This document shows positions 33,391-38,383 of a stretch of DNA of 64,000 bases, piece by piece. This stretch comes from Thermodesulforhabdaceae bacterium. GTDB taxonomy: Bacteria; Desulfobacterota; Syntrophobacteria; Syntrophobacterales; Thermodesulforhabdaceae. The notes under the pieces are model-generated. The model saw nothing but the letters and a program-made list of their open reading frames with translations, had not been told where the DNA came from and did no database searches. Location of the stretch: positions 124,001 to 188,000 of the forward strand of contig JBBFKT010000001.1 of the NCBI GenBank assembly GCA_037482015.1, given 5' to 3'. How positions within the stretch are numbered: the first letter of the stretch is position 1; the number at the start of each line of letters is the position of its first letter. A program made the position numbers and the translations under genes.

Positions 33391-33420
33391 TTGACAGATG
33401 TTTCTTTATCTTTTTATGAT
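33391..33420 (+). promoter_or_regulatory. Sigma70 promoter of the five-gene envelope operon
   Basis: Consensus TTGACA at 33391-33396 and TATGAT at 33415-33420 are separated by 18 bases. The first gene starts about 60 bases downstream. Confidence 0.7.
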
Positions 33421-33480
33421 CGAAATAAAGTGAAGTTTTGGAAATTCAAATCGTCTTTTACAACTAAGAGGATGATCAAG

Positions 33481-34146
33481 ATGAAGGCGATTTTGGCAGG
33501 AGTTGGTATTACCGCTGTATGGTATGGCTTAATGCTTTATGTGAATCCTTTTCCAAGACTTGAGCAGATGTTTTGTGGAAGTTTTGCAAGTGTTATTGTG
33601 TCTTTTGCCGGTTTTCTAGGATTGTCTCTTTCTGCTAAGACTCTTATGACCCAGCGCAACCTGGGAAGCGATTTTGAGAAAGTGATGAGAATAATTGGTG
33701 ATGCACCAGGGACACTTAGCAACATTGAAGTATATAGAAACTTTGTTTGTGATAGGATAAGGAAAGATTTTGGTTTCCTGAAGGTTTTTCCTAACTTCTG
33801 TGTTGTTTTTGGGCTACTTGGAACCCTTGTGGGTATTGCTCAGGGTGTGGATACCTTAGCTGGTCTTTGGGCTGGAACGACAGATATTATTGCTATGAAG
33901 AGCGAGATTTCTCAGTTTCTAAGATACCTGGCTAAAGCTTTTGACTCGGCCATTTTGGGACTTCTTTTTGGAATTATCACAGCGGTAGCTATAAATCTTG
34001 CCCAGAGATGGTCGGAAAAGAAAGTGATAGGGTATTTAAGCGATAAAGTTAAAAATATGCTCATAGAATGGGATAAAGCTCTGGAAACACAGCCTTCTGA
34101 AGGGAAAACCGGAGGTTCTGGAACAGGTGATAGATCGAGAAATTAG
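33481..34146 (+). CDS. MotA/TolQ/ExbB-like proton-channel protein (operon gene 1)
   Basis: This 221-residue inner-membrane protein has four hydrophobic segments near 4-21, 31-50, 103-122 and 154-174. The third holds FGLLGTLVGIAQG and the fourth AFDSAILGLLFGIITAVA, the paired motifs of MotA/TolQ/ExbB channel subunits, which pass protons (or sodium ions) and drive partner proteins across the envelope. Four helices and a short cytoplasmic loop resemble MotA or ZorA more than TolQ/ExbB. I placed the start at ATG 33481 behind AAGAGG; the upstream frame runs back into the promoter. It overlaps the next gene by 20 bases. No MotB, ExbD or TolR with the usual aspartate motif is obvious nearby. Confidence 0.8.
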   Translation: MKAILAGVGITAVWYGLMLYVNPFPRLEQMFCGSFASVIVSFAGFLGLSLSAKTLMTQRNLGSDFEKVMRIIGDAPGTLSNIEVYRNFVCDRIRKDFGFLKVFPNFCVVFGLLGTLVGIAQGVDTLAGLWAGTTDIIAMKSEISQFLRYLAKAFDSAILGLLFGIITAVAINLAQRWSEKKVIGYLSDKVKNMLIEWDKALETQPSEGKTGGSGTGDRSRN

Positions 34147-34615
34147 GGATTTGAGTTTTATAATCTCATTCTTGGGTGCTCTAGTGTTGATACTTATAGC
34201 TGGTTTTTTAATAATCATGATTTACACCGTTAACGTTCCCGTGGCTTTAAACATTGACGTATCCATGAAGGATGGGCGATATCCGGCTGTTGTTATTTTT
34301 GAGAGAAATGATATCTCTTTGCAGTGTGGTAATTTATGTTCTTCATCAGAAGAATTAAAAAATGCACTTCGTGAATTTTGCGACTCTTTTTACAGCTTTC
34401 GCCAACTATTGCCTAATATAAAAAGTCAACCTGAACTTTTCAGACAATTTATAGAAACGAATCTTGATAGGCGTAGGTTTTACCTTGTTTCCATTATTCG
34501 TCCAAGTGGAGTAAAATTGTTTCAGGCTTTTTGGGGAACTGGATTTAGTGAAGATTTGATTGAGCAAGGTGTGCCTGTTCCCGAACCTTGGAGCATTAAG
34601 GTGAACTGTAAATGA
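34127..34615 (+). CDS. Single-pass membrane protein with large periplasmic domain (operon gene 2)
   Basis: This 162-residue protein has one long hydrophobic segment near 10-34 (FIISFLGALVLILIAGFLIIMIYTV) after a short charged N-terminus, so about 125 residues should be periplasmic. The start is GTG 34127, served by GGAGG at 34111-34115. The C-terminal part contains FYLVSIIRPSGVKLFQ followed by a GF pair. The same pattern (I/V-x-R-P-S then F, then GF) recurs in the next protein, so genes 2 and 3 appear related in that domain. Placement suits a MotB/ExbD-like partner, but no peptidoglycan-binding domain is seen. It overlaps both neighbours. Confidence 0.7.
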   Translation: MIDREIRDLSFIISFLGALVLILIAGFLIIMIYTVNVPVALNIDVSMKDGRYPAVVIFERNDISLQCGNLCSSSEELKNALREFCDSFYSFRQLLPNIKSQPELFRQFIETNLDRRRFYLVSIIRPSGVKLFQAFWGTGFSEDLIEQGVPVPEPWSIKVNCK

Positions 34616-35142
34616 ACCGCTGGATTGCATGGACCGTCATAGTAGTATTAGGAGTTAGCCTCTTTTTGATAGGGGGGATTACTTTTAACATTATGATTGA
34701 TTCATCCTGGGACGCACGATCAACGCTTTTGTCGAATAATACCAGAGTAAGCGAAAAGTTTTATTATTTCGAACTAGATCATAACCTTGCAATACCAGTT
34801 GGAACAGAAGGAAAGTGTAACGAAAAATTTTATAGAATTGTAAGGTTTCAAGAAGGAAATTCTATCTTGTGTGTGGTACCTAGAGAGATCCTGGGAAAAT
34901 ATAGTAAGGAACTGGATATTTTGAACCAAAAGGCTTTAATCTATTCTATTCTGAAGGAGCTGGATCCTTCTAGTTATTCATGCGTTTTTTTAGTTCGCCC
35001 TTCCGCTTTTGATTTTTACCACAGAATTATAAAAAATGTTGTAAATCTTGGGTTTGAAGTTATGTGGTTTCCTCTCGAAAATCTCCAGCCACTAATGTTT
35101 AATCTAAGCAGCAAGCAACTGGAGATTAAAAGACAGTTATGA
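34612..35142 (+). CDS. Single-pass membrane protein related to gene 2 (operon gene 3)
   Basis: This 176-residue protein has one membrane helix near 6-28 (AWTVIVVLGVSLFLIGGITFNIM) and about 145 residues outside. The start overlaps the previous stop in an ATGA. The C-terminal region contains YSCVFLVRPSAFDFYHRI and then LGFEVMWFPLE, matching the R-P-S...F...GF pattern of gene 2. Two related single-pass proteins of this kind next to a channel subunit suggest a heteromeric moving element, by analogy with ExbD/TolR or MotB. I know of no established family function. Confidence 0.68.
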   Translation: MNRWIAWTVIVVLGVSLFLIGGITFNIMIDSSWDARSTLLSNNTRVSEKFYYFELDHNLAIPVGTEGKCNEKFYRIVRFQEGNSILCVVPREILGKYSKELDILNQKALIYSILKELDPSSYSCVFLVRPSAFDFYHRIIKNVVNLGFEVMWFPLENLQPLMFNLSSKQLEIKRQL

Positions 35143-36011
35143 TCAGAATCATAGTTGGAATCTTTCTTTTCGTTCTTGTTGCAATAAACTTTTCAGGCTG
35201 TGCCGGGAAGGACGAACCGATAGATTATGATGAACTCACAGCAGAGGAGTTGGAAATCCTTTATCTACACGGTAGAACTTTTCTTCTCCCGAAACTTTGT
35301 AATGCCTATGCTAAGTGGTATCTGGAACGACCCGAGGCGGAGTGGTGGCTAGAAGGGATAGAGCGAAAAGAAGATGCTGGATCTAGATTTATCAGCTATT
35401 GCACTAAGGCTTATTACACTTCTAAGGATCAGGAAGCGGCTCGCTATCTAAAATTTTACTACCTTTTGAATCTCGAAAGAAAACCTACCTATCTGGGGGA
35501 TTTTCTATTTTACCTGAAGGGAGGTGGAGAAAAGGGCGTTTATGAAGCTTTTGTGGAACATGATGCTCACTTTACTGCTATAGCTGAACATGGGCTTAGC
35601 ATAGTTAACAGGTTATTGGGATCTGATGGAACAAAGAGTGACTCTGTAAGCGTTAAGCAATTAGCAGATCTTTTTAATCGTTATGTCACCGATCTTAAAC
35701 AACTTGAATCCAAAGTTTTGATTTTTTCAGGGACAATCCATGTGCTTACCCTTAATATGGAAAACATAGCAACTGTATTAAATAAAACGACGGATGATTT
35801 CAAAGCAGTAAGCCTTTTGAAAGAATTTAGACACCAGATAGAATCTGGAACTTCCTTTGCTATAGCAATAGATAGAGTTGTTAAGGCTCCGGAAAATCTA
35901 AATAAAGATCTTTTATTAATAATAGTTGATGGATTGAACGACTTCAAGAAAAACAAGGAAAAGTATTTCAATCAATATGAATCTTTTCTAAGAGAGCCTA
36001 GCAGGAAATGA
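35139..36011 (+). CDS. Lipoprotein of the envelope operon (operon gene 4)
   Basis: At 290 residues it carries a lipoprotein signal. The hydrophobic stretch IIVGIFLFVLVAINF is followed by the lipobox FSGC, with cysteine near residue 21 and glycine-lysine-aspartate after it. The rest is hydrophilic and alpha-helical, with repeated E-Y/L-rich segments but no domain I can name. The start overlaps the previous stop in an ATGA. It may sit in the outer membrane facing the periplasm and act as the distal end of the assembly driven by the channel. That is inference from its signal and its place in the operon. Confidence 0.7.
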   Translation: MIRIIVGIFLFVLVAINFSGCAGKDEPIDYDELTAEELEILYLHGRTFLLPKLCNAYAKWYLERPEAEWWLEGIERKEDAGSRFISYCTKAYYTSKDQEAARYLKFYYLLNLERKPTYLGDFLFYLKGGGEKGVYEAFVEHDAHFTAIAEHGLSIVNRLLGSDGTKSDSVSVKQLADLFNRYVTDLKQLESKVLIFSGTIHVLTLNMENIATVLNKTTDDFKAVSLLKEFRHQIESGTSFAIAIDRVVKAPENLNKDLLLIIVDGLNDFKKNKEKYFNQYESFLREPSRK

Positions 36012-37927
36012 CACTCCAAAGACTTTCAGGCATTTTGCCTTTTGCTAAAAGAAAAGTCATTTTACTTTTGCTGGTTATTTTGATTGTCTTTGGGTTTTTG
36101 ATCTTTGCTGCTCATGTAAAGCTGTCCCGGACAGCACAATACGCTTACAAAATTATTGCCGAAGATTTGAAAAAACAGGGTGACGAAGCGTTAAAAAAGG
36201 GCTCTTATGTTGTAGCCAAAAGACTCTTTGAACGATCTATGATGTTTGCGGAGAAGGCCAACATTCCATCCCTGAAACAGCAGATTAAGAAAAATATGGA
36301 AAATGATGAAAACATGAAAAAAGTTCTTCGTGGTTTGGTGCCTTTTCAGGGATCTTGGGTTAGTAAAGAAGAATTTCTGAAGACTTACAGTAAAGCTAAA
36401 GATGCTAAACTAGAACTTCATAGTCTTATTTCTCGTGCTTCCGTAGCTGGTGCAGAAGGTGATTATGTCAGAGCAGTATCATATTATGGAGATGCTATAA
36501 AAAAATATGATGAAGCTTCCTGGCTTATTGGCAATGAATATAATCGAGATCAGTTGCTCAAAGGATATGAGAGAGCCTTAATTTTGAGTTCTAAACAAAA
36601 AGCCGACATTGATTTCAAAAATGGGCTTTTCGATCAAGCGGCAAATGTCTACGTAAACATTCTAAGTAAAGTGGATGAGTTACATATAACCGATGAATTT
36701 CTGCTTCAGGAAATTCATCGAAAATCGGTTGAGGCTTTCATAAACGCTTCTAAGGTTAAGTTTGAAATAAAAGACTGGCAGAGTGCTATAGAACTTATAG
36801 GCAAAGCTAAAGAACAATTACACCATTACAATTATATATCACCAGAAACTGTTGCTGTTTTTGATCAGGAAATAGCCAAGCTTTTGGGGAAAATTTATAC
36901 TGAGGCTCTAAATGGTTGTGTTGAGATTATCCAAGATATGGTGACAAGAATTGATGCGTCCCGCACCTGTATTATGGCTGAAAGAGTTGATGATATACTA
37001 AAAAATATAATGCCTGGAGGGAAATACGGCACTTCTAATATTTCCTGTATTCCATCGCGGCGATATGAAATTGCAGAAATTCTTTTGCGAAAAGCCCTAA
37101 ATGTTTTGGAATCGGCTAGCAATACTTATAATCTCGGTGGTCTAAAAGAAAGCAAAGCGCTTTTGCAGCAAACTTTGAACTTGGTGCAAGAAAAGGCTGC
37201 AAAGGATCGAATTGCGAGAGAGAGTTTTTCAATGAAGCTCGCTTCCTTAGAGGAAGAAGCGAAAAAAATGATGAATTCAGGAAGGTATGAAGAAGCTTTT
37301 AGAATATATGAAGAATGTGTCAAACTTATTAGAAGTAGCTCTTTTAGAGCGGAGGAACAGTATCAGAAAAAACTCGAAGATTTTTTGAACAGCCAACGAG
37401 AAATAACAGTAAAAGCCAGGAGTTCCAATTTAGAGAGAATGCTTGAAACAATGGAACATCTTGTAGCAGAGGGAAAGATTGAAGAAGTGGGAAATGTTGT
37501 TTCCAATCTGAACTATACAGATATCGATTCATCAAATCCCAGGCTCAGGCGTATTTTCTGGTTACGATATATATCGCAAAATGTACGAGATTTTTTTAAG
37601 GGCAGTATAAAGGAAGAAGCTGTAAAGTTTTTTGGGAAAGGTCATCAAGGTGATGTTAATATAAAAGTTGATGATGTTTCTCTAAGTAAGATAACTGTTT
37701 CGAATTATAAACCAGGGAACGCTTGTATTGATATTAGAATTAGCGGATCGGTGGTTTTATTTGTTGAATCTAATCGTAAATTTTCGGCAACCCCTTTCCA
37801 GTGCGAAGCTTATATAAAGACTTGTGAGGGATCTTCTAGTGTGAGTTATAACGGCGCCAAATGTAGAGAAGTAAAGGTTAAAGCGAGCTTAGGACCTGAA
37901 CCTACGGTCTTTGGTGATTTGAAGTAA
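36008..37927 (+). CDS. Membrane-anchored helical-repeat protein with C-terminal beta domain (operon gene 5)
   Basis: This 639-residue protein has one N-terminal membrane helix (about 15-36, KVILLLLVILIVFGFLIFAA) and then about 500 residues rich in helices. These include TPR-like blocks such as KKGSYVVAKRLFERSMMFAEKA near 58, SGRYEEAFRIYEECVKLI near 422 and long charged stretches that may form coiled coils. The last 110 residues are beta-rich with little helix (GDVNIKVDDVSLSKITVSNY). It starts in an ATGA overlap and ends the operon at a strong hairpin. I picture a long scaffold or arm in the periplasm. No enzymatic motif is visible. Confidence 0.7.
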   Translation: MTLQRLSGILPFAKRKVILLLLVILIVFGFLIFAAHVKLSRTAQYAYKIIAEDLKKQGDEALKKGSYVVAKRLFERSMMFAEKANIPSLKQQIKKNMENDENMKKVLRGLVPFQGSWVSKEEFLKTYSKAKDAKLELHSLISRASVAGAEGDYVRAVSYYGDAIKKYDEASWLIGNEYNRDQLLKGYERALILSSKQKADIDFKNGLFDQAANVYVNILSKVDELHITDEFLLQEIHRKSVEAFINASKVKFEIKDWQSAIELIGKAKEQLHHYNYISPETVAVFDQEIAKLLGKIYTEALNGCVEIIQDMVTRIDASRTCIMAERVDDILKNIMPGGKYGTSNISCIPSRRYEIAEILLRKALNVLESASNTYNLGGLKESKALLQQTLNLVQEKAAKDRIARESFSMKLASLEEEAKKMMNSGRYEEAFRIYEECVKLIRSSSFRAEEQYQKKLEDFLNSQREITVKARSSNLERMLETMEHLVAEGKIEEVGNVVSNLNYTDIDSSNPRLRRIFWLRYISQNVRDFFKGSIKEEAVKFFGKGHQGDVNIKVDDVSLSKITVSNYKPGNACIDIRISGSVVLFVESNRKFSATPFQCEAYIKTCEGSSSVSYNGAKCREVKVKASLGPEPTVFGDLK

Positions 37928-37965
37928 GTATCCCCCAGAATCGTAATAAAATCCTGGGGGATACT
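37927..37965. terminator. Strong bidirectional terminator hairpin
   Basis: AGTATCCCCCAG at 37927-37938 and its perfect complement at 37954-37965 form a 12-bp stem, followed by TTAATTTTT. It lies between the five-gene operon and the convergent gene at 37973. Confidence 0.8.
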
Positions 37966-37972
37966 TTAATTT

Positions 37973-38383
37973 TTATAGTTCGTAGTCACCGTCTATGGTG
38001 ATGATGTATTCTCTATCTCTTTCTCCTGCTGTGACAATAAATGTGCCGCTTCCTGTTATAGTAGAAAGCTTTCCAAGACCTTTGTAAATTTTCCAGGTTC
38101 CTTTTGTAACCCCTTCTTTTGCGTCTCTTTCACCTTCAAATTTGCTGTAGATTGCCCCGTGTTCAAAGGTAGTGATGGCGTATCCCATCATTTTTCCGTT
38201 TCCGCGTATTCTATCATGAAAAGTTACGGATCTTCTTGATACAAACTTCCCAGCAATACCTGGTTGATATTCTATGGGTTCTCCTTCCATTTCGACCAGG
38301 GTAAGCGAATGGTCAAATTCGTCATGAACATACATCATTTCTCTCCGAACCACCATCAAACGATATTTTGCGTGCCGTTTCAT
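37973..38383 (-). CDS. Hypothetical protein, 136 residues, beta-rich
   Basis: I do not recognise the family with certainty. The pattern VEMEGEPIEYQPGIAGKF, then GNGKMMGYAITTFEHGAIYSKFEG, then LSTITGSGTFIVTAG suggests a small antiparallel beta barrel of the allene-oxide-cyclase or lipocalin-like kind, with glycine-rich strands (STITGSGTFI). There is no signal peptide. A strong AGGAGG lies ahead of the ATG. It is convergent with the five-gene operon and separate from rfaE2, which lies downstream on the same strand with a 110-base leader between them. Confidence 0.6.
   Translation of the reverse strand: MKRHAKYRLMVVRREMMYVHDEFDHSLTLVEMEGEPIEYQPGIAGKFVSRRSVTFHDRIRGNGKMMGYAITTFEHGAIYSKFEGERDAKEGVTKGTWKIYKGLGKLSTITGSGTFIVTAGERDREYIITIDGDYEL

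Follow-up and report, generated by a model that had tools for sequence, protein, structure and literature searches.

Ring-and-axle motors driven by protons supply the power for flagella, the import of nutrients, the upkeep of the envelope, gliding and defence against phages; according to recent surveys, many kinds of such motors are still undescribed. The residues essential to TolQR and ExbBD are an axle aspartate (Asp23/25) and two ring threonines (Thr145/148 and Thr178/181; PMC12905483; PMC12583513), and the arrangement is the same in Zorya and MotAB (PMC11890865). We have analysed a five-gene operon (g1 to g5) in a 64,000-nucleotide stretch of the genome of a Thermodesulforhabdaceae bacterium (contig JBBFKT010000001.1, positions 124,001 to 188,000; that whole stretch is hereafter the window). 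Its first three genes appear to encode a channel subunit and two axle paralogues; the remaining two encode a probable lipoprotein and a TPR protein with a membrane anchor. The axle aspartate and the second ring threonine are both replaced in this copy. We consider it an even call that the operon specifies a trans-envelope machine of the TolQR/AglRQS sort, the motor of which has, in the window, been left without canonical proton coupling and retained as an anchor for g4 and g5, either unpowered or re-tooled.

Among described machines, AglRQS together with the Glt core comes closest in layout. AglRQS, which operates in Myxococcus gliding and is related to the Nfs sporulation system, comprises a TolQ-type gene and, after it, two genes of the TolR type (the AglR-AglQ-AglS layout), as in g1–g3, and the GltC/D/E/G core has periplasmic TPR proteins, with g5 as the TPR protein here; many bacteria that do not glide also have this core complex, in a single operon of unknown function (PMC3169522). 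The differences are that AglQ and AglS have direct matches to the ExbD/TolR Pfam family (6.7e-18 and 3.1e-15, PMC3169522) whereas g2 and g3 have none, that g1 has four helices, and that the FHA/TonB-type GltG and the beta-barrel gene of AglRQS-Glt have no counterpart; a Pfam search found neither FHA nor TonB domains in g1–g5. A 2025 survey describes a further class of unknown function that combines a tolQ-like gene, an unlike pair of tolR-like genes, a TPR gene and a vWA transducer (PMC12204202). Our operon belongs to this general kind, with axles that lie outside the ExbD Pfam family: the TolQ-like gene, the two unlike TolR-like genes and the TPR gene are common to both, whereas the membrane-tethered vWA protein of the survey class is missing from the five genes, which have a lipoprotein instead. 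The ring and axle subunits of TolQR-TolA-TolB-Pal and ExbBD-TonB are also homologous to the g1–g3 trio, with the Asp and two Thr as common active parts; in contrast to those systems there are two axle genes here, and no TolA/TonB, TolB or Pal domain in g2–g5.

The channel subunit, g1, matches the MotA_ExbB family (PF01618; 1.7e-5, 25 bits) above its curated cut-off of 22.9, and a short loop divides its four helices into two pairs, a topology of the MotA/ZorA type, unlike the three-helix TolQ/ExbB. A tree of channel subunits (the G056 row left out) places the trio g1 proteins together and apart from the TolQ/ExbB and MotA proteins of the same genomes, with support of 93/94, slightly under the starred level. 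Elsewhere, the window genome has two ExbD-containing sets (C8 and C18) and two MotA genes, one beside MotB; the trio is therefore an additional system. The MotA_ExbB paralogue at C2:217184 was set aside as an ordinary MotA that adjoins MotB.

A single hydrophobic helix is present in each of g2, g3 and g5. Judged by profile comparison, the R-P-S motif common to g2 and g3 is beyond chance: the profile-profile E value is 9e-6 (reversed control about 0.25), and with more homologues the match rises to 98% and 5e-15 (reversed controls 0.03–0.25). Neither window protein matches the Pfam ExbD/TolR family (PF02472) even at E 10; for g2, g3 and g4 no convincing Pfam, NCBIfam or PADLOC family emerged, and no solved structure was found by sequence. 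The Anabaena g2 scores 17.8 bits against PF02472, below the cut-off, and the window g2 and g3 sequences taken alone gave no link to ExbD (hhalign probability <3%). Once relatives with a VRPDG motif, the cyanobacterial ones among them, had been added, a match emerged between the g2 family and an ExbD/TolR profile made from genes of the window's family (85%, E 6.5e-6; reversed controls again 0.03–0.25), whereas g3 alone falls short of a link (about 0.001–0.008 against the ExbD profile) and is joined only through g2. The g2 family is thus a remote ExbD/TolR relative, and g1–g3 are a divergent motor set of the 5:2 type in which two paralogues serve as axle subunits. The original prediction, which was made from the letters of the DNA, is upheld in part by these analyses: the MotA/TolQ/ExbB-like four-helix protein, the R-P-S motif in both axles, the motor-like logic of the set, and, by Pfam search, the lack of a TonB, Pal, OmpA-like or nuclease/helicase gene. 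Its description of the operon as being of no recognised type is refined, in that g2 and g3, which have no Pfam family, are distant ExbD/TolR kin.

The relatives that carry a VRPDG motif, in each case behind a MotA/ExbB-type gene, occur in genomes G199 and G262 and are plasmid-borne in Anabaena cylindrica and Microcystis aeruginosa. We noted the surroundings of each. The G262 trio (L035 8335-13967), a distant one, adjoins PP2C phosphatase, FHA and vWA-FHA genes, which suggests a phosphorylation-controlled motor; that of G199 (L034 396-5888) lies downstream of a Lon-protease-domain-like membrane protein and a probable lipoprotein. On pANACY.03 of Anabaena cylindrica (L090 5117-7696) the trio comes directly after a type III-B CRISPR (clustered regularly interspaced short palindromic repeats; Cmr) cluster with a CARF-HEPN protein, and a viperin-family antiviral gene is found about 3.6 kb further on. 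On p1 of Microcystis aeruginosa NIES-2481 (L091 1665-7699) it follows a PLD-SNF2 helicase (PADLOC C3a139-like, 3e-65) and a cyclase/SLATT pair of the CBASS (cyclic-oligonucleotide-based anti-phage signalling system) type, a neighbourhood that may be termed Zorya-like, a motor with a helicase-nuclease.

The key observation to emerge from these comparisons concerns the residues for proton transfer. We used a conserved small residue within the helix as the anchor of the axle alignment, which places the Asp site at position -7. A conserved Asp or Glu in the g2 and g3 helices was something that the original prediction had proposed to look for: an Asp occupies the site in g3 of six out of six relatives, and the window has Trp7 in g3, the helix of which contains no acidic residue, and Ser in g2. 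This Ser recurs in g2 of G199, Anabaena and Microcystis; G262 has Leu, and Asp is found in G004, a genome from another genus of the window's family. It seems from this alignment that the axle of the trio family is asymmetric and uses a single Asp; G004 has two. As for the ring, we aligned g1 with five trio homologues and seven TolQ/ExbB proteins: the first pore Thr is kept in the window (GLLGT), and the second, which is Thr in 12/12 of these homologues, is Ala157 (FDSA). Given these replacements in g3 and g1, the epithet 'ion-channel-driven' under which the operon was predicted is unsupported and doubtful for this copy. More generally, at columns that are unanimous among the other trio members, g1 departs four times in the window and never in G004, and g3 four times in the window (Asp7 to Trp included) and twice in G004.

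We also compared changes private to the window with those private to G004, relative to five outgroups; these comparisons are not independent (the same window and G004 sequences enter all of them) and the p-values are uncorrected for multiple comparisons. For g3 the counts are 40 vs 16 (p 0.002) with G078, a member of another family of the phylum, as outgroup, 27 vs 10 and 30 vs 12 (p 0.008) with the cyanobacterial outgroups, and 21 vs 9 (p 0.04) with G199; the excess is absent with G262 (p 0.86). For g2 there are 27 private changes in the window vs 5 in G004 with outgroup G078, and no significant excess with the other outgroups. By this measure, g3 evolves faster in the window than in G004, whereas g4 and g5 do not: neither has a significant excess of window changes over G004.

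The N-terminus of g4 is a hydrophobic signal-like helix ending in Gly-Cys, with Ala at +2; this pair is kept as Gly/Ala/Ser-Cys in G004, G002 and G078, and g4 is a probable lipoprotein. The stretch after the anchor (DYDEL..EELEIL in the window) is strongly conserved, as D-Y-[DE]-E-[LF]..EELEI, in four family members. Pfam recognises TPR in g5, and an AlphaFold2 model made with one homologue (mean predicted local distance difference test score, pLDDT, 83) has a membrane helix, a long TPR-like solenoid (about residues 44–540) and a four-strand beta domain (551–621). Cys 573, 599, 606 and 619 are invariant in all four full-length proteins; in the strand register of the model C573 lies opposite C606, and C599 opposite C619, on neighbouring strands, pairings that would be expected of periplasmic disulphides. 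We claim no specific fold relative for g5: the fold search returned generic TPR solenoids, including BamD, with Z values usual for helical repeats.

We compared the window genome (2.7 Mb) with four others of its family (G001–G004). All five genes are present in G004, in identical order with short gaps or overlaps, at an unrelated site that adjoins dsrAB-type sulfite reductase and cobyrinate synthase genes. Insertion sequence-like transposase fragments lie directly upstream of the G004 g1 (L006 12830-13571), where the promoter region is expected, and no promoter is obvious there. Outside the family, G078 has g2, g3, g4 and g5 in the same order, g2 being cut by a contig end; its g5 (L025 6084-6692) is just 202 residues long, consisting of the membrane helix and first repeats, without the beta domain. 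The order kept at these unrelated sites rules out chance neighbours, and the synteny that the original prediction had named as a check is conserved. G002 and G003, family members from two related genera, have g4 and g5 only: searches of both genomes with g1, with all of PF01618 and with g2/g3 found no motor trio elsewhere. A scan of genome contigs returned a single locus, the G002 record (Syntrophobacterales metagenome-assembled genome JALXAE010000081.1). The five genes are not an obligate unit, because g4–g5 are found without the motor in G002 and G003. G001, of the same genus as the window, has an empty site: its flanking genes are 85–96% identical in protein sequence and separated by ~170 bases, vs 4.7 kb in the window, and no copies of g1, g4 or g5 were found in that genome. 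The right edge of the empty site is a small 136-amino-acid protein (window 37973-38383) that is 96% identical in G001. The gene set sits at a different place in every genome that has its genes; it follows that the cassette has repeatedly been moved or lost. Samples of ~390 genomes of the phylum gave convincing matches to g4 in four and to g2/g3 in five; the motor branch with two unlike axles occurs in ~1% of the sampled phylum genomes.

Turning to the layout of the window copy, the five open reading frames are all on the + strand, fill 33481-37927, and are uninterrupted by any stop or frameshift. The end of g1 contains the start of g2 (34127 vs a g1 end at 34146), and 4-base ATGA overlaps join g2 to g3 (34612-34615), g3 to g4 (35139-35142) and g4 to g5 (36008-36011), so that the predicted run of five overlapping genes is borne out. 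One promoter and one terminator had been predicted as well. The terminator hairpin is firmly backed (-22 kcal/mol, z -5.0; equally stable shuffles 0/200). A promoter-like site is present, although its match taken alone is poor evidence: 20 such sites were found across the region vs 16.8 expected by chance, which is no clear excess. The first open reading frame opens with a TTG at 33391, and this TTG is the start of the TTGACA hexamer of that site; the true start of g1 is probably ATG 33481, because AGAGG stands nine bases before it and the G004 homologue starts there, and g1 therefore has 221 residues, not 251. The five genes are a real operon, and their reading as a single transcription unit is supported.

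Table: Features of the operon in the window, with the basis for each.
Feature	Positions	Strand	Basis or remark
Promoter-like site TTGACA-18-TATGAT	33391..33420	+	consensus match 11/12
g1, four-helix MotA/TolQ/ExbB-type channel subunit, 221 amino acids from likely start	33481..34146	+	PF01618, helices, alignment, tree
g2, single-pass axle paralogue, IRPSG motif	34127..34615	+	remote ExbD/TolR relative, helix table
g3, single-pass axle paralogue, VRPSA...GF motif	34612..35142	+	Trp7 at Asp site
g4, probable lipoprotein, helical	35139..36011	+	homologue alignment; no Pfam/NCBIfam match
g5, N-terminal membrane anchor, TPR-like solenoid and C-terminal beta domain	36008..37927	+	TPR matches, AlphaFold2
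Intrinsic terminator hairpin	37926..37966	+	13 pairs; T-rich tail to 37975

In the most likely arrangement, g1 would be an inner-membrane ring that encloses an axle with a single copy each of g2 and g3. The g5 protein would also be anchored in the inner membrane, its TPR arm reaching into the periplasm with the disulphide-braced beta domain at the tip, where it would meet the g4 lipoprotein. The relatives are probably proton-driven, since they have both the axle Asp and the ring of pore Thr residues: ions may pass between ring and axle, turning one against the other, and the work would be delivered to the periplasm via g5 and perhaps g4. The window ring, by comparison, would be short of half its polar pair and the axle of its acceptor; given these two replacements, proton conduction along the canonical route has most likely been lost. 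The complex is presumably still made, because the open reading frames are intact and translationally coupled, and would serve as an anchor or scaffold for g4–g5, which two genera keep without the motor. We propose tentatively that the window holds a pseudo-motor, an unpowered structural anchor whose arm and lipoprotein are still used, midway between the full-motor and motorless lineages. Several points weigh against this account: window g2 has Asp8 two residues ahead of the axle site, at the helix start, which leaves some ion coupling possible; the relative-rate comparison depends on distant outgroups and, for g1, is not significant; a structure model of g3 from the two window paralogues is unusable (mean pLDDT 49); and the complete five-gene operons in hand number two, those of the window and G004. 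Furthermore, the lipobox of g4 is not conserved in G003, so the outer-membrane end of the machine is uncertain. The G003 protein (L016 8254-9282) has no lipobox cysteine and keeps the conserved stretch, as DYEEF..EELEI.

The main rival to an unpowered anchor is a motor that is still powered, with g2 Asp8 or another polar residue taking over as the ion site and driving g5 and g4 in the manner of TolQR/AglRQS; sequence alone is indecisive between the two, and we regard the rival as unlikely. The position of Asp8, the retention of the first pore Thr and the absence of stops and frameshifts from all five genes are in its favour, as is the g2 of G004, in which an Asp stands exactly at the site, so that the role can shift between axles. 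However, when g2 is aligned without gaps to the g2 proteins of G199 and the cyanobacteria, the site falls on Ser and not on Asp8; the second pore Thr is lost as well, and g3 evolves faster. We judge it improbable that g1–g3 are a decaying remnant, with g4–g5 alone working as a motor-independent envelope scaffold: this would fit the solitary g4–g5 of G002 and G003, the lost active residues and the acceleration of g3 in the window, but the motor frames are all intact and overlapping, they retain conserved RPS, GLLGT and FDS motifs, and translation of g4 appears coupled to that of g3. A Zorya-like phage-sensing complex is very improbable: the best NCBIfam/PADLOC matches of g1 are indeed ZorA models (1.4e-7 and 3.2e-5), g1 has the four-helix topology of ZorA and trios of this kind have defence genes as neighbours on the two cyanobacterial plasmids, but the ZorA score is far under the family cut-off (30.8 vs 500 bits), g1 is short and without the long cytoplasmic tail, g2 and g3 have no OmpA-like peptidoglycan-binding domain of the ZorB kind, there is no helicase/nuclease partner or ZorC/D/E-type gene in the operon, nor any such Zor gene beside its relatives in the phylum, and searches of viral contigs and phage records found no trio relatives. 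Phage sensing, one of the functions originally suggested, has no support at this locus, and by the tests made the operon is neither Zorya nor Tol-Pal nor ExbBD-TonB.

The operon adds a rare motor branch, with two unlike axle subunits that fall outside all Pfam families. It also presents a natural experiment, in which the active residues are intact in one genus and replaced in another, and the motor is absent from two more. Two matters are thereby made testable: whether motors of this sort can retain a structural role once ion coupling is lost, and how many acidic residues, one or two, a heterodimeric axle requires.

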